Source: Rhodocyclaceae bacterium (GTDB lineage Bacteria; Pseudomonadota; Gammaproteobacteria; Burkholderiales; CAIKXV01). From it: a stretch of DNA of 64,000 nucleotides. The notes below the pieces were generated by a model. The model searched no databases and was not told where the DNA came from. It saw nothing but the letters and a program-made list of their open reading frames with translations. This document shows, piece after piece, positions 24,646-40,912 of the stretch. Position 1 is the stretch's first letter; every line of letters begins with the position of its first letter. The position numbers and the translations under genes are program-made. The stretch lies in the NCBI GenBank assembly GCA_020248265.1, contig JADCHX010000005.1, positions 1-64,000 on the forward strand. The letters run 5' to 3'.

Positions 24646-26688
24646 ATGTACCTTTATGCCGTAACGATCTTCTTCAGCGCGTTCCTGCTGTTCCTGGTGC
24701 AACCGCTGATCGCCAAGCAGATCCTGCCCTGGTTCGGCGGCTCGTCCGCGGTCTGGACAACCTGCCTCGTGTTCTTCCAGAGCGTGCTTCTCGCAGGATA
24801 CGCATACACCGACTGGACCACCCGGCGCCTGGCGCCGAAGAAGCAGGCCTGGCTGCACATCGGCCTGCTGGTGGCAAGCCTCGCGGTGCTGCCGATCATC
24901 GCCGACGCGTCCTGGAAGCCGTCGGGCGACGAAGACCCGGCGCTGCGCATCCTCGGGCTGCTGCTGGCCACCATCGGCCTCCCCTACCTCCTGCTGTCGA
25001 CTACCGGGCCGCTGGTGCAGGCCTGGTTCGCTCGTACGTTCGACAACGCCGTGCCCTACCGGCTGTTCGCGCTGTCCAACCTGGCATCGATGCTCGCGCT
25101 GCTGTCCTACCCGGTCGCGATCGAGCCGTGGGTGAACACCGTCGCACAGTCTTGGGGCTGGTCCGCCGGCTACGTGGTGTTCGTGACACTGTGCGCAGCC
25201 GCCGCCGCCTACGGGCTCAAGACCAGCAGCGTACCGGTCGATGTCGCGCCCTCGCGCGCGGTGCACGCCGCCGGCGATGCGGCCGGGCAGCCACCGACCT
25301 GGGGGGCGCTGCTGATGTGGCTGTCGCTGTCGGCGATGGGTTCGGTGCTGCTGCTCTCGCTGACCAGCCACATGACGCAGAACATCGCCTCGGTGCCATT
25401 CCTGTGGATCGTGCCGCTGTCGCTGTACCTGCTCACCTTCATCCTCTGCTTCGACTCGCAGGGCTGGTACCGGCGCACCCCGCTGATGCTGCTCGGCGCG
25501 GTGCTGCTGTGCGTGATGGCCTGGGGCCTGCACTCGAACGAGATCACGCTGAGCATCAAGGTCGCGATCCCGCTCTACTGCGCCGGGCTGTTCGTGCTGT
25601 GCATGTTCTGCCACGGCGAACTGACGCTGATCAAGCCGGCACCGCGCTACCTGACGACGTTCTATCTGATGATCTCGCTGGGCGGCGCCCTGGGCGGCCT
25701 GTTCGTCGGCGTGCTGGCACCGCATGCGTTCAACGGCTACTGGGAACTGGGCATCGGCTTCGTGCTGGTCGCGCTGCTCGCGCTGATCCGGGTGCGCAAG
25801 GCACCGGTATATGCCCTGGTGGTGGCGGTCGGCGTGCTGGTCTTCACCGGCGTCCAGTCGGCCATCTACGTGAAGGAGAAGCTGGCCGACTCGCTGATGA
25901 TCCAGCGCAACTTCTACGGCGTCGTACGGGTGAAAGACTACGGCGATCCGAAGACCGACCCGGAGGCGGTGCGCAGCCTCGTGCACGGCGTGATCCTGCA
26001 CGGCGAGCAGCGGCTCGACCCGGCGCGCAGGATGGATCCGACCAGCTATTACGGTCCGGCATCGGGCATCGGGCTGGCGATCGCCAACGCCCCGGAGAGC
26101 GCGCGCCATGTCGGCGTGATCGGGCTCGGTACCGGCACGCTGGCCACCTACGGGCGTTCGGGCGACCGCTTCCGCATGTATGAGATCAATCCACAGGTGG
26201 TCGACATCGCCCGCGACTGGTTCAGCTTTCTGAAAGATTCGAAGGCCAAGGTCGACGTGGTGCTCGGCGATGCACGCCTCCAGCTCGAGCGCGAAGCACC
26301 GCAGGGCTTCGACGTACTGGCGATCGATGCGTTCTCCAGCGACTCGATCCCCACGCACCTGATCACGAAGGAGGCCATGGAAGTCTACCTGCGGCACATG
26401 AAGCCCGATGGCGTGATCGCATTCCACGTGACAAACCGCTTCCTCGACCTGCCCCCGGTGGTGCGCCGGATCGCCGACGAGATGGGCCTGCAGTCGGCCA
26501 TCGTGTCCGACGAGCCCAGCGACCGGCAGGACCGCTTCCTGTCGAGTTCCGACTGGGTGCTGGTCAGCCGCAGCGACGCCATGCTGCAGAAGGCCGCGAT
26601 CAAGGCGGTCGCCCAGCCGGTGGACTCGAAGCCGCAGTGGCGTCTGTGGACGGACGACTTCAACAACCTGTTCCAGATCCTGAAATGA
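24646..26688 (+). CDS. Membrane-anchored spermidine synthase-like protein (MFS/aminopropyltransferase fusion)
   Basis: A 680-residue protein. The first 400 residues hold about ten hydrophobic helices, resembling the membrane half of fused MFS/spermidine synthase proteins. The C-terminal third is a class I methyltransferase/spermidine-synthase fold: VIGLGTGTL at about 491-499, YEINPQVVDIA, GDARLQL, and the family active-site region AIDAFSSDSIPTHL near 558-571, where Asp follows the usual pattern. Such proteins have not been proven to make spermidine; the membrane half suggests transport or a membrane substrate. A candidate promoter and four tandem repeats precede it. Confidence 0.85.
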   Translation: MYLYAVTIFFSAFLLFLVQPLIAKQILPWFGGSSAVWTTCLVFFQSVLLAGYAYTDWTTRRLAPKKQAWLHIGLLVASLAVLPIIADASWKPSGDEDPALRILGLLLATIGLPYLLLSTTGPLVQAWFARTFDNAVPYRLFALSNLASMLALLSYPVAIEPWVNTVAQSWGWSAGYVVFVTLCAAAAAYGLKTSSVPVDVAPSRAVHAAGDAAGQPPTWGALLMWLSLSAMGSVLLLSLTSHMTQNIASVPFLWIVPLSLYLLTFILCFDSQGWYRRTPLMLLGAVLLCVMAWGLHSNEITLSIKVAIPLYCAGLFVLCMFCHGELTLIKPAPRYLTTFYLMISLGGALGGLFVGVLAPHAFNGYWELGIGFVLVALLALIRVRKAPVYALVVAVGVLVFTGVQSAIYVKEKLADSLMIQRNFYGVVRVKDYGDPKTDPEAVRSLVHGVILHGEQRLDPARRMDPTSYYGPASGIGLAIANAPESARHVGVIGLGTGTLATYGRSGDRFRMYEINPQVVDIARDWFSFLKDSKAKVDVVLGDARLQLEREAPQGFDVLAIDAFSSDSIPTHLITKEAMEVYLRHMKPDGVIAFHVTNRFLDLPPVVRRIADEMGLQSAIVSDEPSDRQDRFLSSSDWVLVSRSDAMLQKAAIKAVAQPVDSKPQWRLWTDDFNNLFQILK

Positions 26689-26690
26689 GG

Positions 26691-26717
26691 GCATGGGCCG
26701 GATAATCCGGTCCATGC
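26691..26717. promoter_or_regulatory. 27-base near-perfect palindrome covering two start codons
   Basis: GCATGGGCCGGAT and ATCCGGTCCATGC flank a central A. The only mismatched pair (G/T) would be a G-U wobble in RNA. It starts two bases after the stop of the upstream gene and contains both possible ATG starts of the esterase gene, one in each arm. It could be an operator or an mRNA hairpin that hides the start. Confidence 0.7.
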
Positions 26718-27574
26718 TCTCTTCGAACCGTCGCCGCCTGCTTCACCTCGGCCTCGCGGGCGGCGCCCTGCCGCTGGTGCAGGCCTGCTCGCCGGTTACC
26801 CTCCTGGAAAGGCGGGTACCCGACGACACCTACCGGCTCGCGCCGGACATCGCCTACGGCAGCAATCCCCGCCAGCGGCTGGACGTCTACTCGCCGCTCG
26901 ACGCACGCACGCCCGCGCCGGTGTTCGTGTTTTTCTATGGTGGCGCCTGGACATCGGGCACGCGCGGCTTCTACCGGTTCGTCGGCGAGGCAATGGCGGC
27001 ACGTGGGATCGTCACCGTGGTGCCCGACTACCGGTTGCATCCCGAAGTGAAGTTCCCCGGCTTCGTCGAGGACAGTGCGCGCGCGGTCCGCTGGGTGATC
27101 GACCATGCGACGAGGCATGGCGGCGATCCATCGCGGGTGTTCATCGGAGGCCATTCGGCAGGCGCCTACAACGCCGCGATGGTTGCGTTCGACCCGCGCT
27201 TCGCGAAGGACGCCGGCTTCGACGCCGGACGGCTCGCCGGGTTCGTCGGCATGGCTGGCCCGTACGACTTCCTGCCGCTCACCGGGAGGACCACCCGCGC
27301 GGTCTTCGGCTGGCCGGATACCCCGCCATCAACACAGCCGATCAACGCGGTCGCGAAGGGAGCGCCGCGCTCGCTGCTGCTCTATGCGACCTCGGACAAC
27401 CTGGTAGCCCCGAAGAACAGCGAGGCCCTGGCCCGCCGGCTGCGCGAGGTCGGCACCGAGGTGAAGCTCGTCCCTTACGAGAACCTCGGCCACCGTACGC
27501 TGGTCGGGTCGCTCGCGCGGCCACTGAACTGGATGGGTGGCACGGCAGAGGAGATCGCGGCGTTCATCCGCTGA
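26693..27574 (+). CDS. Alpha/beta hydrolase (carboxylesterase-like), probably exported
   Basis: A 293-residue serine hydrolase. The oxyanion motif FFYGGAWTSG (about 83-92) takes the place of HGG, the nucleophile is S155 in GGHSAG, followed by an Asp in YATSDNLV and His in ENLGHRTL near the end. The N-terminus (RRRLLHLGLAGGALPLVQAC) looks like an export signal with a lipobox-like Cys, perhaps through the Tat route. I use the ATG at 26693 with GAGG just upstream; the ATG at 26714 is the alternative. Both lie within a palindrome, five bases after the spermidine-synthase-like gene. Confidence 0.82.
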   Translation: MGRIIRSMLSSNRRRLLHLGLAGGALPLVQACSPVTLLERRVPDDTYRLAPDIAYGSNPRQRLDVYSPLDARTPAPVFVFFYGGAWTSGTRGFYRFVGEAMAARGIVTVVPDYRLHPEVKFPGFVEDSARAVRWVIDHATRHGGDPSRVFIGGHSAGAYNAAMVAFDPRFAKDAGFDAGRLAGFVGMAGPYDFLPLTGRTTRAVFGWPDTPPSTQPINAVAKGAPRSLLLYATSDNLVAPKNSEALARRLREVGTEVKLVPYENLGHRTLVGSLARPLNWMGGTAEEIAAFIR

Positions 27575-27622
27575 GCGCGCCGATGTCGGGCATCGGTCGA
27601 CGCCCGGTGCTAGAGTCTCCGC

Positions 27623-29002
27623 ATGGATACCGACACGACCCCTACGCTCGCCCTTGCCCGCTTCGCGGCGCTGCATCCGATCGCGCGCACGGCCGGCAGC
27701 CCGTCCGCCGCTGCGCTGGCTGAAGCGCGCCGCGCCTTCCTCAATTCGTTCGGCTGCATGCTGGGCGGTGCCGACGACCCGGCGGTCGACCTGCTGTGGT
27801 CGGCGCTGCGGCCGCATGCCGGCGCACCGGCGGCCCGGCTGTTCGGCCGCGGCCAGCGCACCGATGCACTGACCGCCGCGCTGGTCAATGGCTACTCGAG
27901 CAACATCCTCGACTTCGACGACACGCACCTGGCGACGGTGATCCATCCGGGGCCGGCCTGCCTGTCGGCGGTACTCGCGATCGCCGAGGCACTGCCCGAC
28001 GGACTGCCGAAGGTCACCGGTGCGCGGCTGCTCGACGCGTTCCTCATCGGCATGGAAGTCGCGTGCCGGCTCGGCGTCGCGATCGGTCATGGACACTACG
28101 CCCGCGGCTGGCACATCACCGGCACCTGCGGCGTGGTCGGTGCAGCCGTGGCCACCGGCCGCCTGCTCGGCCTCGACACGGTGAGGATGGCCCACGCGAT
28201 CGGCATCGCCGCGACATCGGCGACCGGGCTGGGCGAGATGATGGGCGGCATGTCGAAGAGCTACAACATCGCGCGCGCCGGCCGCGAAGGCCTGAACGCC
28301 GCGCTGATCGCGGCCACCGGCTTCACCTCGTCGCTGCGCGCGATCGAGGCACCGCGTGGCTTCGCCGTCGTGCTGGCCGACGGATTCGACGAGGACAGTC
28401 TCACCGGCTCGCTGGGCGAGCGCTGGGAGGCGGCACTCGACACCTACAAACCCTATCCCTGCGGCATCGTGCTGCATCCGCTGATCGATGGCTGCCTGCA
28501 GGTGGCGGCGCAGTCGGGTGCGCCAGCGGCGGCGATCGAACGCGTCGAGGTGAAGGTGCATCCGCTGGTGATGGTGCTCACCGGACGCACCGATCCGAAG
28601 GACGGGCTCGAGTCGAAGCTGAGCTTCAGCCATGCCTGTGCGGTGGCCCTCGCCGACCAGTCGGCCGGCGTCGACCAGTTCACCGACGCGCGCGCGGTCG
28701 ACCCGGCGCTCGCGGCGCTGCGTACCCGCATCCACCCAGTGGTGGACGAGAGCCTGGGCACCGACCAGTCTGCCGTGACGCTGATGCTCGCCGACGGCCG
28801 GCGCTTCGAGGCACGCGTCGAACATGCGACCGGCAGCGTCGTCAATCCGATGTCCGACGCGGCACTGGATGCCAAGTTCATCGCGCTTGCCACGCGCGCG
28901 CTGGGCGAAGAGGCTGCGCGCGCGCTTTGCACGATGTGCCGTGGCATCGACGAACTCGACGACCTATCCCCCCTGTTCGCGCGCGCAGCCGGTGGTGGCT
29001 GA
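27623..29002 (+). CDS. MmgE/PrpD family protein
   Basis: A 459-residue member of the 2-methylcitrate dehydratase (PrpD)/aconitate decarboxylase family. Family markers are NGYSSNILDFDDTH at about 91-104, GHGHYARGWHITGTCG near 153-168, and the KPYPCGIVLHPLIDG segment near 274. Because no other methylcitrate-cycle gene is near, it more likely dehydrates or isomerises another tricarboxylate. It is cytosolic. The next gene starts inside its last codons, so both are co-transcribed. Confidence 0.88.
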   Translation: MDTDTTPTLALARFAALHPIARTAGSPSAAALAEARRAFLNSFGCMLGGADDPAVDLLWSALRPHAGAPAARLFGRGQRTDALTAALVNGYSSNILDFDDTHLATVIHPGPACLSAVLAIAEALPDGLPKVTGARLLDAFLIGMEVACRLGVAIGHGHYARGWHITGTCGVVGAAVATGRLLGLDTVRMAHAIGIAATSATGLGEMMGGMSKSYNIARAGREGLNAALIAATGFTSSLRAIEAPRGFAVVLADGFDEDSLTGSLGERWEAALDTYKPYPCGIVLHPLIDGCLQVAAQSGAPAAAIERVEVKVHPLVMVLTGRTDPKDGLESKLSFSHACAVALADQSAGVDQFTDARAVDPALAALRTRIHPVVDESLGTDQSAVTLMLADGRRFEARVEHATGSVVNPMSDAALDAKFIALATRALGEEAARALCTMCRGIDELDDLSPLFARAAGGG

Positions 29003-29657
29003 TCCTGCAGCCAGCCCGGCCGGCCTGACACTGCTGGCCATCGCCTGGGCACTGTACTTCTGCCTGCACTCGCTGCTCGCAGCCACGCCGGTGAAAGCCA
29101 TGGTGGCGGCTCGCCTGCCGCGGCTCGCGCCGGCCTACCGGCTGGCCTACAACGGCGTGGCGCTGGCCGCGCTGCTGCCGGTGCTGTGGCTGCAGTGGCA
29201 GCTGTCCGGTGCGCCGCTGTTCGAGATACCGATGCCGGCAAGGCTGGCCTGCGACGTCGCGGCGGTGGCGGCGGTGGCTACCTTCTTCTGGACCCTGCGC
29301 TGGTACGACATGGGTGCGTTCACCGGGCTGCGCATCGAATCGGTCGATGGCAGTGCCGGCTTCACGCTGTCGCCACTGCACCGGCATGTGCGGCACCCGT
29401 GGTACTTCCTGGCGCTGGTGATCATCTGGACGCGGCCGATGGATTCGGCCTGGCTGGTAACCTCGATCGCGATCACGCTGTACCTCCTGGTTGGCTCGCA
29501 CCTGGAGGACGCGAAGCTGGTGGGAACCTTCGGCGAGGCCTACCGACGCTATCGTGAACGGGTGCCCGGGCTCTGGCCGTGGCCCGGACAGAGCCTGTCC
29601 GCCGCCGAGGCCGAAGGATGGATGTCGCGCCATGGAGATCCCGGAGCGAGCGGCTAG
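28995..29657 (+). CDS. Membrane methyltransferase-like protein (isoprenylcysteine/phospholipid methyltransferase type)
   Basis: A 220-residue integral membrane protein with five or six hydrophobic helices. The C-terminal part, HRHVRHPWYFLALVIIW followed by GSHLEDAKLVGTFGEAYRRY and VPGLWPWP, matches the SAM-pocket pattern (RHP...E..L...G..Y..Y) of ICMT/PEMT-type enzymes and NnrU relatives. The start is a GTG at 28995, overlapping the last eight bases of the PrpD gene. The substrate is unknown. Confidence 0.72.
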   Translation: MADPAASPAGLTLLAIAWALYFCLHSLLAATPVKAMVAARLPRLAPAYRLAYNGVALAALLPVLWLQWQLSGAPLFEIPMPARLACDVAAVAAVATFFWTLRWYDMGAFTGLRIESVDGSAGFTLSPLHRHVRHPWYFLALVIIWTRPMDSAWLVTSIAITLYLLVGSHLEDAKLVGTFGEAYRRYRERVPGLWPWPGQSLSAAEAEGWMSRHGDPGASG

Positions 29658-29678
29658 CGGGTCCGGTTGTGGCACGGG

Positions 29679-29697
29679 CGTCCGCGCGGCGCGGACG
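29679..29697. terminator. 8-bp GC stem-loop between convergent genes
   Basis: CGTCCGCG and CGCGGACG pair around three bases (CGG), in the 68-base gap between the convergent methyltransferase and transporter genes. There is no T-run. Confidence 0.5.
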
Positions 29698-29725
29698 ATC
29701 GGGAGGGCGCGGTCAGTACATCAGG

Positions 29726-31099
29726 TCAGTACAGCAGGTATGCGTACAGGTTCAGCGCGACGATCGACACGCCCAGCATCGTGACGAGGTAGGGCAGGTT
29801 CCATCGGATGTAGGTGCCGATCGGGATGCCGTAGCGTGCCTGCATGGCCAGCACCGTGCCCGAGGTGGCGCAGGCCGGCAGGCCGATCGCCCATGAGCAG
29901 AGGAAGGCGAGCGCGAGCAGGTCGGGTTGCGGCGACAACGGTGCCAGCCAGACGCCGACCAGCGGGATCGACACGATGGTATGCAGGCCGGCCCAGGCCA
30001 CCAGCGTGCAGATCACCAGCACGATGCTCGCTTCCAGACCACCGAACCCGGTGAACGGTGTGCCGATATCGAACGCGGTGAGCAGCGCCGCCAGGCCGGA
30101 GGCGAGCAGCCCGGCTGCCATGAAGATCCAGAGTTCGCCGGCCAGCCCCGGCAGTCGCATCGGCACATGCCGCAGCAGCCGATCGGACGCGGCGGACGCG
30201 CCCTGCTTTGCCGCCAGCGCTACCCCGGTGATCGCGATCGCCAGTATCGCGATCACCGGCTGTATCGACCAGGCGGGCTTCCATTCGTGGATCGCGAACA
30301 CGCCGATCGCAAGCACGAACGGAATCCACAGGGCGCCGACGTCCACCGGATAACCTTCGAAGTCGCGGGCATGGCCGAAGCGGGCCGTGGAAAGCCATGC
30401 CCACAGCACCAGGGTCGCGACCAGTCCGATCGGCAGGCCCAGCAGCACCAGGGTGAACAGGCTCGAGCCCTCAGCCACGGTGAGCGCGACCGCCATCGCA
30501 CCGAGGAACGGCGACCAGAACGCACAGGTGGAGAAAGCGGTCCCGAGGGCCATGGCCTGCTGGCGGGTGAGCGTACCTTCCGGCGGCACCGGATAGTCCG
30601 GCACCGGCACGCCGGGTCCTGGCGGGCGGCGCAGCCGGTCAGCCGCGATCAGCGCGGCGGTGAGATTGATCACCCCGCCGAACACGTGCACGCCGACGAT
30701 CGTGCGCAGCAGCGCGAGCCGGCCGCGGCGCAGCGGTGCCGGCTCGCTGCCCGGCTCGCCGTCTGTCTCGCGCACGCTGACCAGCGGCAGGAAGGCGACG
30801 CCGACCAGCATCGCGATGATCATCGTGTTCATCGTCAGCGCACGCGCAAGCAGGCCCGACTGCCCGTGCAGCGCGCCCCAGGCCATACCCGCGGCACCGA
30901 GCACGCCCATCACCACCACCATCACCCGCTGCCGCTGGCCGAGACGGTGCCAGAGCGGGGCGGCGGCCGCCCATGCGACCGCGCCGGGCAGCCAGTCCGG
31001 GATCGTGGGCACGATCTCGGCGGCGATCGCCAGTGCAACCACCGACATCAGCAGCCAGCCGCTGAGCCGATGCCGACCGGACGGTTGCGGTTCACTCAT
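29726..31099 (-). CDS. Polytopic membrane protein of unknown function, possible carrier
   Basis: A 457-residue protein with about 12 hydrophobic helices and little soluble sequence. The repeated small-residue segments GTAFSTCAFWSPFLGAMAV (about 190-208) and GLPACATSGTVLAMQ (about 415-429) sit in equivalent places of the two halves, as in ion-transporter-superfamily carriers with inverted repeats. I cannot name a family. The ATG at 31099 lies seven bases after a TATAGT box (31112-31107), with no usual ribosome site, so the mRNA may be leaderless. It is divergent from another unknown membrane protein gene. Confidence 0.65.
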   Translation of the reverse strand: MSEPQPSGRHRLSGWLLMSVVALAIAAEIVPTIPDWLPGAVAWAAAAPLWHRLGQRQRVMVVVMGVLGAAGMAWGALHGQSGLLARALTMNTMIIAMLVGVAFLPLVSVRETDGEPGSEPAPLRRGRLALLRTIVGVHVFGGVINLTAALIAADRLRRPPGPGVPVPDYPVPPEGTLTRQQAMALGTAFSTCAFWSPFLGAMAVALTVAEGSSLFTLVLLGLPIGLVATLVLWAWLSTARFGHARDFEGYPVDVGALWIPFVLAIGVFAIHEWKPAWSIQPVIAILAIAITGVALAAKQGASAASDRLLRHVPMRLPGLAGELWIFMAAGLLASGLAALLTAFDIGTPFTGFGGLEASIVLVICTLVAWAGLHTIVSIPLVGVWLAPLSPQPDLLALAFLCSWAIGLPACATSGTVLAMQARYGIPIGTYIRWNLPYLVTMLGVSIVALNLYAYLLY

Positions 31100-31178
31100 G
31101 CCACCGACTATAGCAGCCGGCCTGCCGCGCCTGCCCGCCGCGCTTGCCTGCGTCCGCACGCGCGGGCACTCTCCACGC

Positions 31179-31952
31179 ATGGGTTCGCTCTTCCTGCTCA
31201 AGCTCGCGACGATGCCGCTGGTGATCGTCACCGCGACGCTGGCTGGCCGGCGCTACGGCGCGGCCGTCGCCGGGCTGATCCTCGGGCTGCCGATCGTGTC
31301 CGGTCCGATCTCGGTGTTCGTGGCGTTCGAACAGGGCATCGGCTTCGCACGCGAGGCGGCCTCAGGCACGCTGCTAGGGCTGATCGCGCTGGCGACCTAC
31401 TGCCTGTCCTACGGCTTCGCTGCGCGCCGCTTCGCATGGCCGGGCGCGCTCGTCTGCGGCCTCTCGGCCACCGCATCGATGGTCTGGCTGCTCGACACGA
31501 TCGCGCTGCCAGAGTCGGCCGTGATCTGGGTCACCGCATCGGCGATCGTGCTGGCGATACGGGTCTGCCCGGCACCCGGCCCGACACTGCGCCGCAAGCC
31601 CCCGCCGGCCTGGGACCTGCCCGCGCGCATCATCGTGTCGACCAGCTTCATGATGACGGTAACCCTGCTCGCCGCCTCGATCGGACCGACGATGACCGGC
31701 ATGGCCTCGACATTCCCGGTGATGCTGTCCGTGATGGCACCGTTTACGCATCGCGTCGAAGGACAGGCGGCCGTGTTGTCGCTGCTGCGCGGCTGCATCG
31801 AAGGCCTGGTCACCTTCGCGCTGTTCTTCCAGGTGCTGAAGATGACGCTGGGTACGTGGCCGGCGCCGCTCGCCTATGGCTGCGCGCTGCTTGCGACGCT
31901 CATCGTTGCAGCGGGCGTGCTCACCCTGCAGCGCCGCCGCGCCCACGACTGA
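31179..31952 (+). CDS. Membrane protein of unknown function
   Basis: A 257-residue protein with about seven hydrophobic helices. The N-terminal segment LKLATMPLVIVTATLAGRR followed by GLILGLPIVSGPISVF is reminiscent of small permease-like families, but I recognise no signature. It is divergently paired with the 12-helix protein over 79 bases, suggesting joint control. Its TGA stop lies inside the left arm of a large inverted repeat shared with the convergent Bug gene. Confidence 0.6.
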   Translation: MGSLFLLKLATMPLVIVTATLAGRRYGAAVAGLILGLPIVSGPISVFVAFEQGIGFAREAASGTLLGLIALATYCLSYGFAARRFAWPGALVCGLSATASMVWLLDTIALPESAVIWVTASAIVLAIRVCPAPGPTLRRKPPPAWDLPARIIVSTSFMMTVTLLAASIGPTMTGMASTFPVMLSVMAPFTHRVEGQAAVLSLLRGCIEGLVTFALFFQVLKMTLGTWPAPLAYGCALLATLIVAAGVLTLQRRRAHD

Positions 31953-32041
31953 AAATCCGGGTCAGACTCGGTTTTCCCGGCAAGGTACGGTCTGCGGCAC
32001 GACGAGGGTCGGAAAACCGAGTCTGACACGGGTTTTCAGTC
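31947..32041. repeat. REPIN-like inverted repeat (31-base arms, 33-base spacer)
   Basis: Arms 31947-31977 and 32011-32041 match at 29 of 31 positions when one is reverse-complemented. Both contain GTCAGACTCGGTTTTCC. The outer end of each arm reads GACTGAAAA, so each supplies the Asp-TGA end of the gene that runs into it. This layout, two short palindromic-type units facing each other between convergent genes, is that of REP doublets mobilised by RAYT transposases. I see no second copy and no RAYT gene in this window. Confidence 0.7.
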
Positions 32042-33034
32042 GACCTTCAGGCCAGCGAGTCCGATCGCGGTCTGGAAGCGCTTGTACTCTTCGCGGATCA
32101 GCTGCAGGAAGGCCTCCGGCGTGCTGGACATGGCTTCGCCGCCCTGGCGCTCCATCTGCTCGCGCGTCACCGGATCCTCGACGACCTTGACCACTGCGGT
32201 GCGCAGCCGCTCGTACAGCGGCTTCGGCGGACCCGCGCGCGAGGGTCCGGCAGGCAGCATCAGCCCCATCCAGCCGGTGGATACATATCCCGGCACACCA
32301 GCCTCGATGATGGTCGGCAGCGTCGGCGTCACCACGGAGCGCTTCTCGCCGCCGGTGGCTACCGCGCGAAGCTTGCCCGCGCGGACATGGCCGATCACCG
32401 CCGGCATCGGTGCGATCGTCACCTGCGCCTCGTTGCCGATCACCGCGACGAGGGACGCGCCGCCCTTGTACGGAACGTGCTGCACGTTGATGCCCGTCAT
32501 GTGGGTGAACAGCACGCCGGCCAGGTGGCTCTGGAAGCCCGACCCCGCGTTCGACATGTTGAGCTTCCCGGGATTGGCCCTCGCATGTGCGATCAGTTCC
32601 TGTACCGACTGCACCGGCAACGAGGGCGTGACAACCAGCATGTTGTGCGTGACCGCGACCAGCGACAGCGGCACGAAGTCGCGGATGGGATCGTAGTTCA
32701 GCCCCTTGTAGATCTGGGGCGTGATCACCTGCATGCCGGTGGAGCTGACCAGCAGGGTGTAGCCATCCGCCGCCGAGCGAGATGCGATCTCACCGCCGAT
32801 GAGGCCACCTGCACCGGCGCGGTTGTCCGGGACGATCTGCGCGCCGAGTTCCTCGCCCAGGCGCACGCCGAGCACGCGCGCCAGTGCGTCGACGGACGTA
32901 CCCGGCGTGTTGGCGATGATCAGCCGGACGGGCTTGACGGGGTACGACGGCGGGGATGCCCCTTGCGCAGGAACGCTGGACAGCATCGTGCAGGCAGCAG
33001 CGAGAGCGGCGACCGCCGGGCGGTTGCAGGGCAT
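32036..33034 (-). CDS. Bug/TctC-type tripartite tricarboxylate transporter receptor
   Basis: A 332-residue periplasmic receptor. GAGGAGGAA precedes the ATG at 33034. Signal peptide to about residue 25 (SVPAQGA). Markers: YPVKPVRLIIANTPGTSVD (an N-T-P-G-T loop instead of P-F-P-P-G), PDNRAGAGGLIGGEI, ADGYTLLVSSTG, QHVPYKGGASLVA. It has no transporter gene nearby. It shares a REPIN-like element with the convergent membrane protein gene at its 3' end. Confidence 0.9.
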   Translation of the reverse strand: MPCNRPAVAALAAACTMLSSVPAQGASPPSYPVKPVRLIIANTPGTSVDALARVLGVRLGEELGAQIVPDNRAGAGGLIGGEIASRSAADGYTLLVSSTGMQVITPQIYKGLNYDPIRDFVPLSLVAVTHNMLVVTPSLPVQSVQELIAHARANPGKLNMSNAGSGFQSHLAGVLFTHMTGINVQHVPYKGGASLVAVIGNEAQVTIAPMPAVIGHVRAGKLRAVATGGEKRSVVTPTLPTIIEAGVPGYVSTGWMGLMLPAGPSRAGPPKPLYERLRTAVVKVVEDPVTREQMERQGGEAMSSTPEAFLQLIREEYKRFQTAIGLAGLKVD

Positions 33035-33172
33035 TGTCGTTTCCTCCTCGGGAATGCGCCGATGTCTTCCGTGCGCCGCTGGGGCCGGCGCTTCGGGCAA
33101 TCTGACGCAGGCAACAGTCTACGGCGACCCGCTACGAAACGCCAACTCGCGCTCCCCCGAACAGCGCGGCGC

Positions 33173-35482
33173 TCAGAACGCCGAGGTCCACATCAGGCCG
33201 ACCGACCGCTTGTCGTTGCCCGCGATGTTCAACGCGTCCTGCGAAAGCGTGAACTGCAGGCCCAGACGCGAAGTCCTCGAAAGGGGCGCGTCGTAGCCGA
33301 CGCGGTAGTCGCGCTGTCGACCGGTCGGTGCAAGGTCGATCTGCTCGATGCCGGTCGAGGCGACGCCGGTCACCGGGTCGATGGAAGTCACCGCGAGGCT
33401 CGCGCTACCCGCGGTCACACGAAGCGGCTGCCGGAAGGAAAAGCTGATCCGGTCGGCCGGGCGCAACAGTTCCGAAATACTGTAGCGCGCACCGAACGCC
33501 TGCGCCCGGATATCGCTGGTGTCCGTCAGCAGGCTTGCGTCGCCGGCCTGCCCCGACCGGGTCGTCGACTGCGATGCCTCGATGAAGATGCTCTCGCGGG
33601 CACTGAGCGAAATCAGGGCGGAGACGCCGAGCTCGATGCTCTGGCGGGCGCTGCCCAGGCCGACCGCCGACGACTCGCTGTAGCTGCTGCCGAGCAGCCC
33701 GTTGCGTTCGCCCAGGGACTGCGTGGAGACGCCGATCTGCAGCCGCTCGTGCACCCGCCAGGCGAGGCCAGCACCGACGGCGGTCGCCTTCTGCGCGAGC
33801 GGCATCGCCGCCGACTCCAGCGGCGACTGCGCCAGGCCGGCGCTGCCGCTGTAGGCGAACGCCACGCGCACGCCGCCACCGAGCGGCATGCCAGCGGCGA
33901 CGATGCTGCCACCCTGGCTGAACGAGGAAAGGTTGGTCGCCATCTCTCCGGCTGCGATGGCCGCATCTTCGGAGCCGTGCAGCGCGCGTACGTAGGAGTA
34001 CTGCACCGGTAACGCCGTGCCGTAACCGAACGCGAGCACTGCGCCACTGCGATCCTCGAGCAGCGCGTAAGCGGCACGAGATGGCCGGACGGCGTCCGGG
34101 TCCTGCCCGAACACGCCGAGCAACGACAGGCGGTCGGGTGCGGCTGGCGCCAGCATCGACAGCTCGCCGCCGTCTAGAGCCATCCTGCGCACGCCTGCGT
34201 TCGGGCTGACCGGCAACGCGTTGAGCTGCGCCGAAGCCGATGGCGTCCGGATCAGACCGGACAGATTGACCGAGAAGTTGCGCTGATAACCGTCCAGCGC
34301 GGTGTAGTTCGCGAGCCTCGACTGCACCGCCGACAGGTTGCCGAGCGCGCCGCTGGAGATCATCGAACCGGTGAGCGACGACACCGGCACCGCCCTGCCG
34401 TTCGCCTGTGTCACCGTGAGCGTCCCGTAGGGGCTGAAAGCCGTCGCCAGGTTCACCAGGCCGTTGCCGTAGGTGCTGTCCACGCCGGCCACGCCCAGGT
34501 CGGTGGCAGTGGCGAGCAGCAGGTTCGCGGCAGTGCCATTGGTACGCAGGATCGGCCACGCCCCCTGCAGCAGGAGCAGCGAGCCGCTGACCAGCGGTGC
34601 CGACATCGAGGTACCGCTCCACGCGGCGTAGGCGCCGTTGCCGCTCTTGGCTGCCGGCGCAAGGATGTTCTCGCCCGGTGCCGTCACCCAGCGCGCGGCA
34701 TACGAGGTCGCCTTCGCACCAGTGTCCACCAGCGATCCGGAGCCCGGACGGTTGCTGAAGGAGGACACGGTACCCGACGCATTCACCGAGCCGACGAACA
34801 CCAGCCTCGAAACCGCCGCAGCCGTAAGGCCGCGGGTGCTCGCGCCTCCGAGCAGGTTCTGCGCGCTGTTGCCGCCAGCCCAGACGATGAACGCACCTTT
34901 CCCCGCGGCGTAGTTGATCGCCGCCACGAGTTCGGGCGTGTTGCCGAAGGTCAGCGAGAGGTTGATCACGCCAGCACCGGCGTTCGCCGCGCGCACCAGG
35001 CCGTTGGCGACATCGGTCGAGTAGCCCGACCCGGACGCGTTGAGCACCTTCTGCGCAACGATGTTCGCGTTGGGCGCCATGCCGATCACGCTGCCGGCTG
35101 CGGTCGAATAGCCACGGTAGTTGACCGCGAACGGCATCCGCGCGTTCGCGGCTGCAATCGCGGCCACTGCAGTGCCATGGTTGTTGTCGTCGTTCGCACC
35201 GTTCGAGCAGCGGAACGTTACCGCCGCACAGCCGCTCAGTGCCCTGGACACCTGCCCGGCTGCGAACACGCTGTTGCCCGCGGCAATGCCGGTATCGACG
35301 ACACCGAGCACCTGCCCGGTGCCCCACTGGCCGGCAGACAGGATCGCCGGCGTGACTTTCATCTGCGCGAGCCAGGGCGCGACCGGCTGTGCGCCGGCCG
35401 GCGTGGCCATGCCGAATACAGCCGAAGCGACCGCCAGGAAGAGTGCCTTGCGCGGCGCGTCGAGCGTAGTTGCGTTCACCAT
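33173..35482 (-). CDS. Subtilisin-type (S8) autotransporter serine protease
   Basis: A 769-residue protein. Signal peptide to about residue 32 (PAGAQ). S8 protease domain about 40-345 with D63 (VVDTGI), H102 (NNHGTAVA), oxyanion N205 and S292 (SGTSMSAP). A short linker leads to a C-terminal beta-barrel of about 280 residues with alternating hydrophobic strands and a terminal Phe, the outer-membrane assembly signal. It should display or release its protease at the cell surface. AGGG precedes the ATG. A probable cyclic-di-GMP riboswitch lies in its 5' leader, suggesting control by the biofilm/motility second messenger. Confidence 0.9.
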   Translation of the reverse strand: MVNATTLDAPRKALFLAVASAVFGMATPAGAQPVAPWLAQMKVTPAILSAGQWGTGQVLGVVDTGIAAGNSVFAAGQVSRALSGCAAVTFRCSNGANDDNNHGTAVAAIAAANARMPFAVNYRGYSTAAGSVIGMAPNANIVAQKVLNASGSGYSTDVANGLVRAANAGAGVINLSLTFGNTPELVAAINYAAGKGAFIVWAGGNSAQNLLGGASTRGLTAAAVSRLVFVGSVNASGTVSSFSNRPGSGSLVDTGAKATSYAARWVTAPGENILAPAAKSGNGAYAAWSGTSMSAPLVSGSLLLLQGAWPILRTNGTAANLLLATATDLGVAGVDSTYGNGLVNLATAFSPYGTLTVTQANGRAVPVSSLTGSMISSGALGNLSAVQSRLANYTALDGYQRNFSVNLSGLIRTPSASAQLNALPVSPNAGVRRMALDGGELSMLAPAAPDRLSLLGVFGQDPDAVRPSRAAYALLEDRSGAVLAFGYGTALPVQYSYVRALHGSEDAAIAAGEMATNLSSFSQGGSIVAAGMPLGGGVRVAFAYSGSAGLAQSPLESAAMPLAQKATAVGAGLAWRVHERLQIGVSTQSLGERNGLLGSSYSESSAVGLGSARQSIELGVSALISLSARESIFIEASQSTTRSGQAGDASLLTDTSDIRAQAFGARYSISELLRPADRISFSFRQPLRVTAGSASLAVTSIDPVTGVASTGIEQIDLAPTGRQRDYRVGYDAPLSRTSRLGLQFTLSQDALNIAGNDKRSVGLMWTSAF

Positions 35483-35536
35483 CGGTAGCCCTCGAAATGT
35501 GCGGGCGATGACGGCGGCGCAGGCAGTCCCGTGCGG

Positions 35537-35617
35537 GATCTGGCAGCTGGCTGGCGTGGTCTTCGACCGTAGCCCCTGTAGCTTTGCGCCGCCGGCTTTC
35601 GCCGGGTTTGCCGGATG
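35537..35617 (-). promoter_or_regulatory. Probable cyclic-di-GMP class I (GEMM) riboswitch
   Basis: On the minus strand the leader reads GGCAAACC, a CCGGC-GAAA-GCCGG hairpin with the conserved GAAA tetraloop, then GGCGCAAAGC, then a second irregular hairpin, and closes with GCTGCC. These are the fixed elements of the GEMM-I aptamer. Outer stem P1 pairs ATCCGGCA with TGCCAGAT with one mismatch. By my count of the Vibrio Vc2 RNA, the ligand-contacting G20, A47 and C92 are kept. It ends 54 bases before the autotransporter start; a TCCC-GCAC-GGGA hairpin follows and may be the expression platform. Confidence 0.75.
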
Positions 35618-35885
35618 GACGCCATTGCCCTTTGTTGGGGTTGGCGTCCGTCTGAGTGGATGGAGATTAGTGATGGCCGCCCCGACCGTCGCGGAGGTTA
35701 TGCACTGCAGCGGTGTGAATTTGTCGACAGGAGCGGCTGCCTGCCAGCGTGGGCGGGGCCTGTTGCGGGATTCGTCTGTTCACCCTGCCTGCCGTTCGTG
35801 TCAGTATCCTTGACCGACCCGTCCAACGTGGCCGCGCCAGCCGTCGCGCAGCCAGTTGAATTCAACTCAGGCGCCAGTCCAACCG
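35618..35885. other. Intergenic region upstream of the riboswitch and the orphan gene
   Basis: This stretch must hold the promoter for the riboswitch/autotransporter transcript and for the plus-strand orphan gene. It appears less GC-rich than its surroundings. I see no clear paired -35/-10 boxes, no RNA gene and no mobile-element end. Confidence 0.4.
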
Positions 35886-36380
35886 ATGTGTTACCTGATC
35901 AGCGTTGCAGTCGCTTCGCCGGGCATAGACGTGCAGGCGCACTTCCACGGCTTCGGCCTGGTGGCTGCCGACACGGTCAACCCGACGGTCAAGGAGGCTC
36001 TCGGCCCATACCCGGCGTTCGACATCACCGAGCACGGATGCTCGTGCTCTCTGCATGCGCATGGGTCCAGGCACGACGAGGCCGAGCTTCGACGGCGCTA
36101 TGCAAAGAAGGGCTGGACAGCCGCGAAGATCGATCGCGCGATCGAGTCCGTATCCCGCTCTCGCGCACACTCGCCGCGGACCGCCCGAGATCGGTTCCTG
36201 GAGGCTCTCTCGGCGATGTGCGGCGCGGGCGCATCAGTCCGTCTCCTATCGCACGCATACGCGGGTCGATTCGATCAGGAGACTTTCAAGCTGTCGCCGC
36301 CTGGGCGCATCGCGCTGGGCACGCTCTCGCGCGCAACGTTCATGGAGGACGCCGTCCTCGCGATCGAGCCGCAGGGCTGA
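35886..36380 (+). CDS. Conserved-looking protein of unknown function with HGCSCSLHAHG motif
   Basis: A 164-residue cytosolic protein starting MCYLISVAVASPG. A Cys/His cluster (H50, C52, C54, H57, H59) could bind a metal or a cofactor. It is followed by a highly charged helix (about 64-92, rich in Arg, Lys and Glu). I recognise no family. Coding potential is supported by length, balanced composition and an early beta-strand pattern. An in-frame TTG at 35856 is a weaker start. It is isolated between the riboswitch/protease unit and the amidase gene, in DNA with a somewhat different composition, so recent acquisition is possible. Confidence 0.6.
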   Translation: MCYLISVAVASPGIDVQAHFHGFGLVAADTVNPTVKEALGPYPAFDITEHGCSCSLHAHGSRHDEAELRRRYAKKGWTAAKIDRAIESVSRSRAHSPRTARDRFLEALSAMCGAGASVRLLSHAYAGRFDQETFKLSPPGRIALGTLSRATFMEDAVLAIEPQG

Positions 36381-36414
36381 TTCCAAGCCATGCCTTGCAA
36401 GGCGCGATCAGCCA

Positions 36415-36439
36415 GTCGGCGTCACCTCGAATCGCCGAC
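36415..36439. terminator. 7-bp stem-loop between convergent genes
   Basis: GTCGGCG and CGCCGAC pair around 11 bases in the 151-base gap between the orphan gene and the amidase gene. A separate 12-base perfect palindrome, GCCTTGCAAGGC, lies at 36392-36403. Neither has a T-run. Confidence 0.4.
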
Positions 36440-36531
36440 CTGATTCCGATCGCCGCCTGCCATGTCGCCAGGCCTCTTCATTCGCCCCTGGCACGCTGAC
36501 CCGAAGAGGTGGCAGGCCTGCGCCAGAACGC

Positions 36532-37815
36532 CTAGCGGGAGATCGTCTTCCAGGCCGCGTCGGCCGCAAGCAGCACGGTGCTGTCGCCGCGGTACGGTCC
36601 GACGAACTGCACCCCGAGCGGCAGCGCCTTCTGACCGATGCCGGCGGGAATCGTCACGCACGGCAGGCCGAGCGTCGTCCAGTTCTTGTTGAACAGCGAG
36701 TTACCGGTGCTGGTCAGGCCGAACGGCGCCTCGCCCGGCGCGCTCGGGGTGAGCAGCACGTCGACCGTGCGGAACGCATCGATGAACATCGCGCCCACTT
36801 CCAGCACCACGTCGATCGCACGCTCGTAGAGCTCGCGCGAGGTACCGCGGCCGCGCTCGATGCGCGAGCGCAGGTCTTCGCTCAGCAGTTCGCGCTGCTT
36901 GTCGTACTCATAACCGAGCGAAAACGCCTCCTCGAACTGCATGATGGTCGCGTTGGCATCGTAGATCGCCACCGCCTGCGGCGGCAGGTCGGCATCGACG
37001 ACCGTCCAGCCGGCCGCGCGCAGCTTGTCTGCGACGTTCGCGAGCAGGTTGCGCGTAGGCTCGTCGGTCTTGTCCCAGTGCGGCGTGCGGTAGAGGCCGA
37101 CGCGGGGCTTTGCCTTGTTGCGCGCGAAGTCGGGCAGCGGCCGGCCGGAGGTGGCGCAGACGAGTAGGGCTGCATCCTCCACCGTGCGGGCATGGGTGCC
37201 GATGGTGTCGAGGGACTCGGCGACGATCTTCAGCCCGGCCCGGTTGATCGTGTTGAACGTCGGCTTGTAGCCGACGATGCCGCAGAACGCAGCCGGCCGG
37301 ATGGTCGAACCCCCAGTCTGGGTACCGAACGCGAACGGCACCATCTGGTCGGCCACGGCAGCCGCCGAACCACTCGACGAGCCGCCGGGCGTGTGGCTCA
37401 GGTTGTGCGGATTGCGGGTGCGCGCCGGGTGGTTGTTGGCGAACTCGGTGGTCTCGGTCTTGCCGAGGATCACCGCGCCGGCACGCCGGGCGGCCGCGAT
37501 GCACGCTGCATCGGCGCGCGGGCGATGGCCGGCGTAGATCGCCGAGTTGCAGGCAGTCGGCATGTCGGCCGTGTCGATCACGTCTTTCACGCCGACCGGC
37601 ACGCCGTGCAGCACACCGCGGCGCGGGCCACGGTCGCAGGCACGCGCCTGCTCGATGGCCAGTTCCGCGTCGAGGAATGCCCATGCCTGCACGGTCGGTT
37701 CACGTTCGGCGATGCGTGCAAGGCACGCGCGGACCAGCGTTTCGCTGGTCAGGCGTCCCGCGGCGATTTCGCGCGCGGCCTGGGTTGCGGAGAACTGGTT
37801 GGCAACGCTGGCCAT
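36532..37815 (-). CDS. Amidase (amidase-signature family)
   Basis: A 427-residue hydrolase with the Ser-cisSer-Lys triad of the amidase-signature family: K77 in GVPVGVKDVID, S146 in PGGSSSGSAA and S170 in TQTGGSTIRPA. The family also includes GatA, but no gatB/gatC is nearby and the C-terminal half lacks GatA features, so it is a free-standing amidase for small or aryl amides. The ATG at 37815 follows GAGGAAA. It is divergent from the M16 peptidase gene. Confidence 0.9.
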   Translation of the reverse strand: MASVANQFSATQAAREIAAGRLTSETLVRACLARIAEREPTVQAWAFLDAELAIEQARACDRGPRRGVLHGVPVGVKDVIDTADMPTACNSAIYAGHRPRADAACIAAARRAGAVILGKTETTEFANNHPARTRNPHNLSHTPGGSSSGSAAAVADQMVPFAFGTQTGGSTIRPAAFCGIVGYKPTFNTINRAGLKIVAESLDTIGTHARTVEDAALLVCATSGRPLPDFARNKAKPRVGLYRTPHWDKTDEPTRNLLANVADKLRAAGWTVVDADLPPQAVAIYDANATIMQFEEAFSLGYEYDKQRELLSEDLRSRIERGRGTSRELYERAIDVVLEVGAMFIDAFRTVDVLLTPSAPGEAPFGLTSTGNSLFNKNWTTLGLPCVTIPAGIGQKALPLGVQFVGPYRGDSTVLLAADAAWKTISR

Positions 37816-37954
37816 CGGGTTTTTCCTCTTCTTCGGCGGGCTCGGGAAGGATGCATCCGGACGGTTCGACTGTATCACGCGACCGCCTTCAGCCTGCTCT
37901 ATGATCCGTCTCGAACGTGTCCGCGCCCCGGGCACGCCTGCCTTCGAAAGCCTC

Positions 37955-40912
37955 ATGCCGACCCTGCCCCGCCCGTCCCGTCCGCGAAGCGCCAAGCCCG
38001 CCTTGCATCCTGTCCGCCGCTGGCTGGGTACGCTGCTGGCCGCCATGTCCCTGCTGGCAGCACCGCTGCCCGGTACGGTCGCCGGCACGACCCTCGGGGC
38101 CGCCCTGGCAACGGCCGCAGCCGCGGCCGCGTCGCTGGCCGCCATGCCGGCGGCCGCGCAACCCAGGTTGCCACCAGGCGTGACGCGCGGCCCCAGCGTC
38201 GAGGGCATCACCGAATACCGGCTGGCCAACGGCCTGCAGGTGCTGCTGTTTCCCGACGAGTCGAGCGCCAACTTCATGGCGAACATCACCTACATGGTCG
38301 GCTCGCGCCACGAGAACTATGGCGAACGTGGAATGGCCCACCTGCTGGAACACCTGCTGTTCCGGCGCACGACGAACATCCCGAGCATCTCGAAGGCGCT
38401 GGCTGAACGCGGTGCCTGGTCCAACGGTACGACCTGGCTCGACCGCACCAACTACTTCGGCACCTTCTCGGCGAGCGAGGACAACCTGCGCTGGGTGATC
38501 GCGATGGAAGCCGACCGTATGGTCAATACGCAGATCACGCGCGCGGAACTCGACCCCGAGATGTCAGTGGTGCGCAACGAGTTCGAGCAGGGCGAAAACA
38601 ACCCGGTACGGGTGCTGATGCAGCGCGTCACCTCGTCGGCCTACCTGTGGCACAACTACGGCAACAGCACGATCGGCGCGCGTTCGGACATCGAGAACGT
38701 ACCGATCGAGCGGCTGGAGGCTTTCTACCGGACGTACTACCAGCCGGACAACGCATCCCTGCTGCTCGCCGGGCGCTTCGACGAGACGCTCGCGCTGGAG
38801 TTGATCGCGAAGCACTTCGGCGCGATCCCGGCACCGAAACGCGTGCTGCCGCGGACCTACACCGTCGAACCGGTGCAGGACGGCGAGCGGCAGGTGGTAC
38901 TGCGCCGCACCGGCGACGTGCAGGCGGTGATCGCCGCCTACCACATCCCGGCGGGCCCGCACCCGGATTCGGCGGCGATCGACCTGCTGACCGAGATCCT
39001 GCGTACACCCCCGGCGGGCCGCCTGTTCCGCGCGCTGGTCGAGCGCAAGCGCGCGGTGTCCGTTTTCGGCTTCGACCAGGCGATGCGCGAGCCCGGCATC
39101 GCGATGTACGGCGCGCAACTCACGCTCGACCAGCCGATCGAAGCGGCGCGCGACACGCTCACCGCGACGCTCGAAGGGCTGGCGAAAGAGCCGGTCACCG
39201 AGGCCGAGGTGGAGCGCGCGCGCACCGCGTTGCTGCGCCAGTACGACGAGATCATGGCCAATCCGCCGGCGCTGGGCCGGGCGATGAGCGATTCGATCGC
39301 CACCGGCGACTGGCGCCTGTTCTTCCTGCAGCGCGACCGCCTGCGCAAGGCGACCGCCGCCGACGTGAACCGGGTGGCCGCTGCCTACTTCAAGCCGTCG
39401 AACCGCACGCTGGGGCTGTTCATCCCCGATCCGAAACCCGACCGGGCCGAGATCCCGCCGACGCCGGACGTGGCCGAGCTGCTGCGCGACTACAAGGGCG
39501 ACACCGCACTGGCAGCCGGCGAGACCTTCGACCCGGCACCGGCCAATATCGAGAAGCGCACGCTGCGGCGTACGCTGCCGGTTGGCCTCGATCTGGTGAT
39601 GCTGCCGCGGCGCACCCGTGGCGAGACGGTCAACTTCCAGCTCACGCTGCGCTTCGGCGACGAGAAGTCGGTGTTCGGCCGTGGCACGCAGGCGAGCTTC
39701 GCCGCGGCGATGCTGATGCGCGGGACTGCGCTGCGCGATCGCCAGCAGATCCAGGATGCGTTCAACGCGCTGCGCGCGCAGGTATCGATCGGCGGTGGCC
39801 CGACCTCGGTCACCGTCACGGGACAGACGGTGAAGTCGCAGTTGCCGGCCGTACTGGAACTGGTCGCCGAGGTGCTGCGGCGGCCTTCCTTCCCGGAACG
39901 GGACCTGGAAGAGATGCGGGCGGAATCGATCGCCTCGATCGATCGCCAGCGCCAGGATCCGGCGTCGATCGGAGCGCTGGCGTTCAACCGGCACTTCAAC
40001 ATCCACCCGCCGGGCGACATCCGCCACGTACAGACGCTCGACGAGCAGATGGCACAGGTTCGCGCGGTCACGCTGGACGGCGTGCGTGCCTTCCACCGCG
40101 AGTTCTACGGCGCCAGCAAGGGGGAGTTCGCCGCCGTCGGCGACTTCGACGAGGCCGCGCTCGCCGGGCTGGTCGGCAGGCTGTTCAACGACTGGAAAAG
40201 CCCCCGGCCGTGGCAGCGCGTGCCGAACGTGCATGCCGACATCGCGCCGTCCCGCATCGTGATCGAGACGCCCGACCGTGCGAACGCGTCCTTCCGGATG
40301 GGGATGAATCTCGCGCTGCGCGTGGACGACCCGGATTACCCGGCACTGTTGCTGGGCGAGCAGATGCTCGGTGGCGGCTTCCTCAGTTCGCGCCTCGCCA
40401 CGCGCGTACGGCATCAGGAAGGCCTGTCGTACTCGATCTGGGCACAGATCGCCGCTGGCAGCCTCGACGACAGCGGCGCATTCATCGCCGGTGCGATCTT
40501 CGCCCCGGAGAACGCTGCGCGCCTGGAGGCGGCCGTGCGCGAAGAACTGCAGCGGGCGCTCGCCGACGGCTTCACCGAGCAGGAGGTCGCAAGCGCGAAG
40601 AGCGGCTACCTGCAGTCGGTACGGGTCGCGCGCTCGTCGGACACCCGTCTGGCGGCGGCACTCGCATCGAACCAGTTCCTCGGGCGCACCTATGCGTTCC
40701 AGGAAGCGCTCGATGCAAAGGTCGCGGCCACCACGCCGCAGCAGGTGGTGGAGGCACTGCGCAGGCGGCTCGACCTGTCGAAGCTCACCACGGTGATCGC
40801 CGGCGATTTCGCGGGAGCGGCGAAACGGCCCGGCAGCCTGCGAACCCAGCCCGGTGGATCCACGGCGGCCGCCGGGCCAGCCCCCGCGTCGAAGCCCGCC
40901 GCAGCGCCTTGA
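37955..40912 (+). CDS. M16 (insulinase-type) zinc metallopeptidase, two-domain, exported
   Basis: A 985-residue periplasmic peptidase. The N-terminal signal region is long and Ala-rich, ending near AAAQP (about residue 68). The first M16 domain carries the inverted zinc motif H129-LL-E132-H133 and the third ligand E209 in VRNEFEQ. The second half is homologous but lacks HxxEH; it keeps the substrate-side Arg/Tyr region (RHQEGLSYSIW). This is the two-domain clamshell in one chain. I prefer the ATG at 37955 (GAAAG upstream) to the ATG at 37901. Its stop overlaps the start of the exonuclease gene. Confidence 0.88.
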   Translation: MPTLPRPSRPRSAKPALHPVRRWLGTLLAAMSLLAAPLPGTVAGTTLGAALATAAAAAASLAAMPAAAQPRLPPGVTRGPSVEGITEYRLANGLQVLLFPDESSANFMANITYMVGSRHENYGERGMAHLLEHLLFRRTTNIPSISKALAERGAWSNGTTWLDRTNYFGTFSASEDNLRWVIAMEADRMVNTQITRAELDPEMSVVRNEFEQGENNPVRVLMQRVTSSAYLWHNYGNSTIGARSDIENVPIERLEAFYRTYYQPDNASLLLAGRFDETLALELIAKHFGAIPAPKRVLPRTYTVEPVQDGERQVVLRRTGDVQAVIAAYHIPAGPHPDSAAIDLLTEILRTPPAGRLFRALVERKRAVSVFGFDQAMREPGIAMYGAQLTLDQPIEAARDTLTATLEGLAKEPVTEAEVERARTALLRQYDEIMANPPALGRAMSDSIATGDWRLFFLQRDRLRKATAADVNRVAAAYFKPSNRTLGLFIPDPKPDRAEIPPTPDVAELLRDYKGDTALAAGETFDPAPANIEKRTLRRTLPVGLDLVMLPRRTRGETVNFQLTLRFGDEKSVFGRGTQASFAAAMLMRGTALRDRQQIQDAFNALRAQVSIGGGPTSVTVTGQTVKSQLPAVLELVAEVLRRPSFPERDLEEMRAESIASIDRQRQDPASIGALAFNRHFNIHPPGDIRHVQTLDEQMAQVRAVTLDGVRAFHREFYGASKGEFAAVGDFDEAALAGLVGRLFNDWKSPRPWQRVPNVHADIAPSRIVIETPDRANASFRMGMNLALRVDDPDYPALLLGEQMLGGGFLSSRLATRVRHQEGLSYSIWAQIAAGSLDDSGAFIAGAIFAPENAARLEAAVREELQRALADGFTEQEVASAKSGYLQSVRVARSSDTRLAAALASNQFLGRTYAFQEALDAKVAATTPQQVVEALRRRLDLSKLTTVIAGDFAGAAKRPGSLRTQPGGSTAAAGPAPASKPAAAP

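Follow-up and report, generated by a model that had tools for sequence, protein, structure and literature searches.

The window analysed here is a stretch of 64,000 nucleotides of DNA from a Rhodocyclaceae bacterium. On its minus strand it holds a gene for an S8 subtilase of 769 amino acids (33173-35482), and a sequence-only reading had placed in the leader of this gene a cyclic-di-GMP (c-di-GMP) riboswitch of the GEMM-I class. The locus raises two questions: whether the leader is a genuine c-di-GMP riboswitch and, if so, in which direction it would act on the protease.

The RF01051 (c-di-GMP-I) covariance model matched positions 35622-35539 on the minus strand over its full length (model positions 1-87) with 61.8 bits, which is not a background score (gathering score 35 bits; E = 1.1e-9 in the 64-kb window). 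The next-best places in the 4.55-Mb genome reached 17.8 and 15.2 bits, both below the cut-off, and the aptamer is the only RF01051 match above the cut-off found in its genome; a second c-di-GMP-I element was rejected because no other place passed. The fixed elements that had been claimed for the leader of the S8 gene were recovered on the minus strand, namely GGCAAACC (35612-35605), GCGCAAAGC, the closing GCUGCC and the GAAA-capped CCGGC/GCCGG hairpin. The GAAA tetraloop is present on P2 and the tetraloop-receptor strand on P3 reads CUAC; by a rough pattern for this strand, 135 loci sampled in the order among the matches listed had TAC (34), TAA (95), TAG (one) or none (five). Judged from score and sequence elements, it is as good as certain that the aptamer is real and belongs to the c-di-GMP-I family.

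Model alignment and sequence place G 35612, A 35585 and C 35543 at the ligand-contact positions, which we take to be G20, A47 and C92 in Vc2 numbering. In natural cGAMP (GEMM-Ib) riboswitches an A replaces G20, and this A was not found at the equivalent place, where 35612 is G. Because of this G, c-di-GMP is favoured as the ligand and cGAMP is disfavoured. Binding of cGAMP by a G20A mutant is described in excerpts of PMC7288161. Since the genome contains 17 GGDEF matches, c-di-GMP is probably made and the ligand is expected to be available; the aptamer would bind it in the cell.

The start codon of the protease gene lies 56 nt downstream of the aptamer. A Peptidase_S8 domain (PF00082, E = 1.4e-34) spans residues 54-341, no other gene of the genome has a PF00082 match at E<=1e-10, and the Asp/His/Ser triad (D63, H102 and S292) is invariant in an alignment of five proteins (A5). 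The earlier designation of the product as an S8 autotransporter holds for its S8 part; for the autotransporter part no domain model matched, as the whole protein gave no match to an autotransporter domain such as PF03797 in Pfam and NCBIfam. Similarly, no Pfam family was found for the C-terminal fragment (searched to E = 10) or for those of three relatives. The N-terminus looks by eye like a signal peptide, the C-terminal residue is Phe, and alternating hydrophobic stretches are enriched in residues 481-769 by a home-made score (reached by 4 of 1000 shuffles). Two AlphaFold2 models had pLDDT values of 31.5 and 34.3, too poor to read a fold. From these sequence features the protease is apparently exported and likely an autotransporter with a C-terminal outer-membrane beta-barrel. 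SphB1 and NalP are S8 autotransporters with an N-terminal S8 domain and a C-terminal outer-membrane barrel. The window protein resembles them in its N-terminal S8 domain and in a C-terminal part that may be read as such a barrel, but differs in having no autotransporter domain-model match; we know of no riboswitch for SphB1 or NalP.

The GTDB family of the source genome consists here of its genus alone, and 11 genomes were compared. The aptamer is present in five of them (window genome included) and the protease in the same five (cut by a contig end in G005). In the four relatives the aptamer precedes the same gene with 64.7-65.6 bits, compared with 61.8 in the window, and the distance between ATG and aptamer is identical in all five carriers. 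Neither aptamer nor protease was found in the remaining six genomes, in which the amidase gene is present (the neighbours by Pfam are a TctC-type receptor and an amidase). When window positions 26000-38000 were used as a blastn query against these six genomes, the stretch carrying aptamer, protease and a divergent ORF (33123-36528) was missing beside the same amidase gene. On the right, all six align to the window from about 36528 onward; on the left, alignment resumes at 33146 (L173), 33123 (L174) and 33089 (L175), or only at about 31942 (L176), 31940 (L177) and 31000 (L178). Between the flanks lie some 40-70 bases in L174 and L175, roughly 45-165 in L176-L178 and about 1.5 kb of other DNA in L173. 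Since the stretch is missing between the flanks in six genomes, aptamer and gene are either both present or both missing. The claim of a c-di-GMP-I aptamer in the S8 leader is supported; within the genus it shares the distribution of the gene, and it has G at the ligand-type position.

The divergent ORF (35856-36380, 174 codons) has no Pfam family. It was rejected as a member of the unit, as tblastn matched it in one of the four protease-bearing relatives (L015, where the contig ends within it) and not in L014, L016 or L017, whose flanks cover the place.

The leaders of the five carriers (the window, L004, L005, L006 and L007), which are close relatives, were aligned. A single variable column lies between GGCAAACC and the aptamer 3' end, while the roughly 45 bases directly 5' of the aptamer core are variable. 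Downstream of the aptamer, an 18-nt strand, GCGCCGCCGTCATCGCCC, is invariant in all five. Within the aptamer core, CGGCGGCGCA (35585-35594, minus strand) is a 10-nt perfect complement of UGCGCCGCCG (35512-35521, minus strand), and both strands are conserved. The latter is a candidate switching strand, whose predicted partner is either the aptamer core or, together with the following UC, the start-codon region. A complement of 10 nt was reached in 30 of 3000 dinucleotide shuffles of the window linker, so that by itself it is modest evidence; in the four relatives the complement is 9 nt long and was reached by 62-78 of 3000 linker shuffles. Complements at p<=0.05 were found at 15 of 134 loci among the matches listed, five of these being rows of the own genus. 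Upstream of the variable part, a ATCACTAATCTCC-like stretch (about 35659-35673 in the window, minus strand) is well kept in the five leaders and is perhaps a promoter or transcript start. A search of 33000-35950 found no sigma-70-type promoter site.

When the aptamer was forced to form in the fold model, the strand 35521-35512 of the window leader paired with the start-codon region, giving a predicted stem-loop (35471-35521, minus strand) over the Shine-Dalgarno sequence (GAGGG, 35493-35489) and the ATG (35482-35480); the ATG was paired in all five leaders. In the window leader the fold model pairs the Shine-Dalgarno GGG, and for the most part also the ATG, whether or not the aptamer is formed; the predicted difference is therefore gradual and lies in the cost of opening the ribosome-binding site (RBS). 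In all 45 settings (combinations of leader and length, nine for each of the five leaders), opening cost more once the aptamer was formed, by 0.4 to 8.6 kcal/mol. When the linkers were shuffled as a control for all of these settings, the effect was reached by 95 of 2250 shuffles, and 33 of the 45 settings lay beyond the shuffles (<=2 of 50): 7/9 for the window, 9/9 for L004, 8/9 for L005, 6/9 for L006 and 3/9 for L007. For the window leader, one of the three settings that include 60 nt of coding region was beyond the shuffles. A deeper shuffle run (three leaders, four settings each) gave 7 of 2400 shuffles reaching the effect.

Because the opening cost is higher with the aptamer formed, mostly beyond shuffles, a translational OFF switch is predicted, with reserve; the predicted direction is partly backed by the statistics. 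We therefore favour, with moderate confidence, the reading that a c-di-GMP-I riboswitch lowers translation of an exported S8 protease at high c-di-GMP. At low c-di-GMP, 35521-35512 would pair with the aptamer core at 35594-35585, the RBS would be easier to open and the protease would be made. At high c-di-GMP, the ligand-folded aptamer would leave 35521-35512 to pair with the start-codon region instead, and the RBS would be harder to open. The two pairings are predicted to be mutually exclusive. The sequence-only reading had given no direction, and it is from the leader that repression is predicted.

The targets of such aptamers were surveyed across the order, in which 147 of 399 genomes have a c-di-GMP-I match over the cut-off. 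The 135 loci sampled among the matches listed, with some of the listed rows left out, yielded 129 downstream genes after removal of four own-genus rows (the genus being counted once) and of L087 and L099, which are second aptamers before one gene. As downstream gene we counted the longest ORF on the same strand in the vicinity of the aptamer, so that some assignments may be wrong. By Pfam and motifs, a Peptidase_S8 gene followed 15 of the 129 sampled aptamers among the matches listed, in 11 families. As S8 matches across the order number 75 in 60 genomes, chance alone would give about 0.05 S8 genes among the 129 if each kb holds one gene, an assumption under which the enrichment is 318-fold. 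The pairing of this riboswitch with an S8 autotransporter had been put forward as apparently undescribed; these 15 of 129 cases mean that a pairing with S8 genes is not singular. The S8 proteins are of two kinds. Ten of them were scanned at length, and six had Big_7 Ig domains, five of these together with a Fervidolysin-type prodomain.

Two S8 proteins of one family (f29; L077 and L125) can be aligned with most of the window protein, at 29-30% identity. Outside the genus, the closest homologues belong to two other families, are 51% (G061) and 50% (G124) identical and have no c-di-GMP-I aptamer within 1.5 kb. At L056, a c-di-GMP-I-GGC aptamer (RF03167, 1735-1810, minus strand, 65.6 bits) lies some 400 nt upstream of the region matched in a further S8 relative. 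Given G061 and G124 without the aptamer and L056 with the GGC type, gain or loss of the aptamer-S8 link has probably occurred on more than one occasion. The commonest target among the matches listed is DUF1631 (49 of 129, e.g. L057, L060 and L082), and none of the papers found to mention DUF1631 concerns riboswitches to judge by its title. Calpain-like genes (PF00648) also follow c-di-GMP-I aptamers (L146 and L155), both with OFF-like leaders.

Direction was then compared across the order with one automated start rule, which left 79 of the 135 loci (the rule gave no start for 52, and the four own-genus rows were dropped) and 13 of the 15 S8 genes (L064 and L125 fell out). Among the matches listed, 10 of 13 S8 leaders were OFF-like and none ON-like, while of the non-S8 leaders 29 of 66 were OFF-like and two ON-like (DUF1631: 15/30 OFF, one ON; remaining leaders: 14/36 OFF, one ON). 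A one-sided Fisher test of the S8 leaders against the rest gave a P-value of 0.029, and OFF-like leaders are common in general, as the 29 of 66 show. With starts chosen by eye at 14 S8 loci (L145 left out), 10 of 14 were OFF at <=5 of 100 shuffles. The leaders of the two f29 proteins, which share the protease architecture, gave small or mixed differences with nothing beyond shuffles; L077 was not OFF-like by the automated rule, nor was L125 with its by-eye start. A clear OFF layout was seen at another S8 gene, L144, where a 10-nt strand is complementary to the 3' part of the aptamer and the stretch beside it can pair over the Shine-Dalgarno sequence.

These counts bear on the possibility that the element is a genuine c-di-GMP-I riboswitch of the opposite sign, with more protease made when the ligand is bound, in the manner of Vc1 and gbpA. 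Such an ON switch has a precedent, since the available part of PMC4744006 describes positive regulation of gbpA by Vc1 in V. cholerae, and with the start site largely paired in both predicted states the sign given by the fold model could be wrong. We consider it unlikely, as the OFF sign was obtained in all 45 settings, 33 of them beyond shuffles, and none of the 13 S8 leaders in the order looks ON among the matches listed. The window aptamer is like Vc2 and Vc1 of Vibrio cholerae in family, core and the G at the position separating c-di-GMP from cGAMP, and differs from them in its target gene, its weak P1, the C at A18 and an expression platform of its own.

A riboswitch could also act in either direction through mRNA decay or Rho rather than through ribosome access. 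No intrinsic-terminator-like site was found in 33000-35950, by which a terminator platform was rejected, and this would fit such a mechanism. So would a hairpin directly 5' of the aptamer core, GGACGCCA...UGGCGUCC (35617-35649, minus strand), which is kept in the free minimum-energy folds of four of the five leaders and could shield the 5' end. Control by decay or Rho nevertheless appears rather improbable to us, because the switching strand is unchanged in the five leaders and the effect on RBS opening mostly exceeds that of shuffles. The 3' arm of this hairpin overlaps the weak P1; rather than shielding the 5' end, the hairpin might act as a second element of the switch.

The earlier description of the aptamer did not hold for P1. 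A P1 of eight pairs with one mismatch, as had been proposed, was not found; the best duplex flanking the aptamer has four pairs (UGGC/GCCA), a 3x3 internal loop and three pairs (GGG/CCC). P1 of the window aptamer is weak, and its UGGC arm is also part of the upstream hairpin 35649-35617, with which it would compete. Additionally, the A18 equivalent (35614) is C in the window and A in the four genus relatives. Together with the score of 61.8 bits against 64.7-65.6 in the relatives, these features could mark a decayed aptamer, a relic in the source genome that still scores and no longer binds. We give this little credence: the core is nearly unchanged in five genomes, and in the order sample, among the matches listed, A occupies position 18 at 100 of 127 anchored loci and another base at 27 (24 of 122 without five probably mis-anchored loci; 8 of 135 loci were not anchored). 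Chance resemblance or an artefact is refuted by the E value of 1.1e-9 and by the distribution shared with the gene, which follows the aptamer in five genomes and is missing where the aptamer is absent.

For the favoured reading, repression of an exported protease by c-di-GMP, the nearest known system is the zmpI gene of Clostridioides difficile, which encodes PPEP-1, has a class I c-di-GMP riboswitch and is negatively regulated according to excerpts of PMC6366702; the zmpI row of a table in the accessible part of PMC6200980 reads -62.61. PPEP-1 releases surface adhesins (PMC6366702, PMC6200980, both in excerpt). The likeness lies in a class I c-di-GMP riboswitch before the gene of a secreted (here apparently exported) protease, with repression published for Cdi-1-12/zmpI and predicted here. 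The differences are that zmpI encodes a zinc metalloprotease in a Gram-positive bacterium, whereas the window encodes an S8 serine protease in an uncultured Gram-negative with control predicted at translation. LapD-LapG control of LapA in Pseudomonas fluorescens works through a protein receptor and a periplasmic protease. Unlike it, the present locus would use an RNA element, and LapG (PF06035) was found in none of the 11 genus genomes. In P. fluorescens, low c-di-GMP leads to cleavage and loss of a surface adhesin (PMC3032545, in excerpt). The accessible part of PMC12452182 names a putative cysteine protease family downstream of tandem c-di-GMP-I aptamers in Bacillota.

No report of a c-di-GMP riboswitch paired with an S8 protease or autotransporter was found in the literature, mostly at the level of titles and abstracts, and none before an S8 gene in the accessible parts of PMC10599522, PMC9026889, PMC9228545, PMC3627812, PMC7793685 and PMC12452182. 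The riboswitch class is thus known, the S8 target was not found described, and the arrangement is recurrent. The pairing is found again in many related bacteria, and we therefore regard it as a new link in regulation, assembled from known parts.

In physiological terms, the exported protease, which a C-terminal beta-barrel probably holds in the outer membrane, would cleave proteins of the surface or matrix as cells leave the sessile state. It is conceivable that its substrates are TPS-domain (FHA-type) exoproteins, which occur in 9 of the 11 genus genomes with two matches in the source genome. More tentatively, c-di-GMP-I aptamers in the order may form a recurrent regulon that keeps exported proteases (S8 and calpain-like) silent while cells are sessile and releases them as c-di-GMP falls. 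If true, adhesins or matrix would here be shed under the control of an RNA in place of LapD/LapG, a solution convergent with that of zmpI in C. difficile. The locus would tie the main biofilm second messenger via RNA to an apparently exported serine protease in a genus whose 11 genomes gave no LapG match, and the same aptamer-S8 link is seen in 11 families of the sample among the matches listed. It may serve as a direct and cheap test case of whether Gram-negatives time surface proteolysis by riboswitch, as C. difficile does with PPEP-1.
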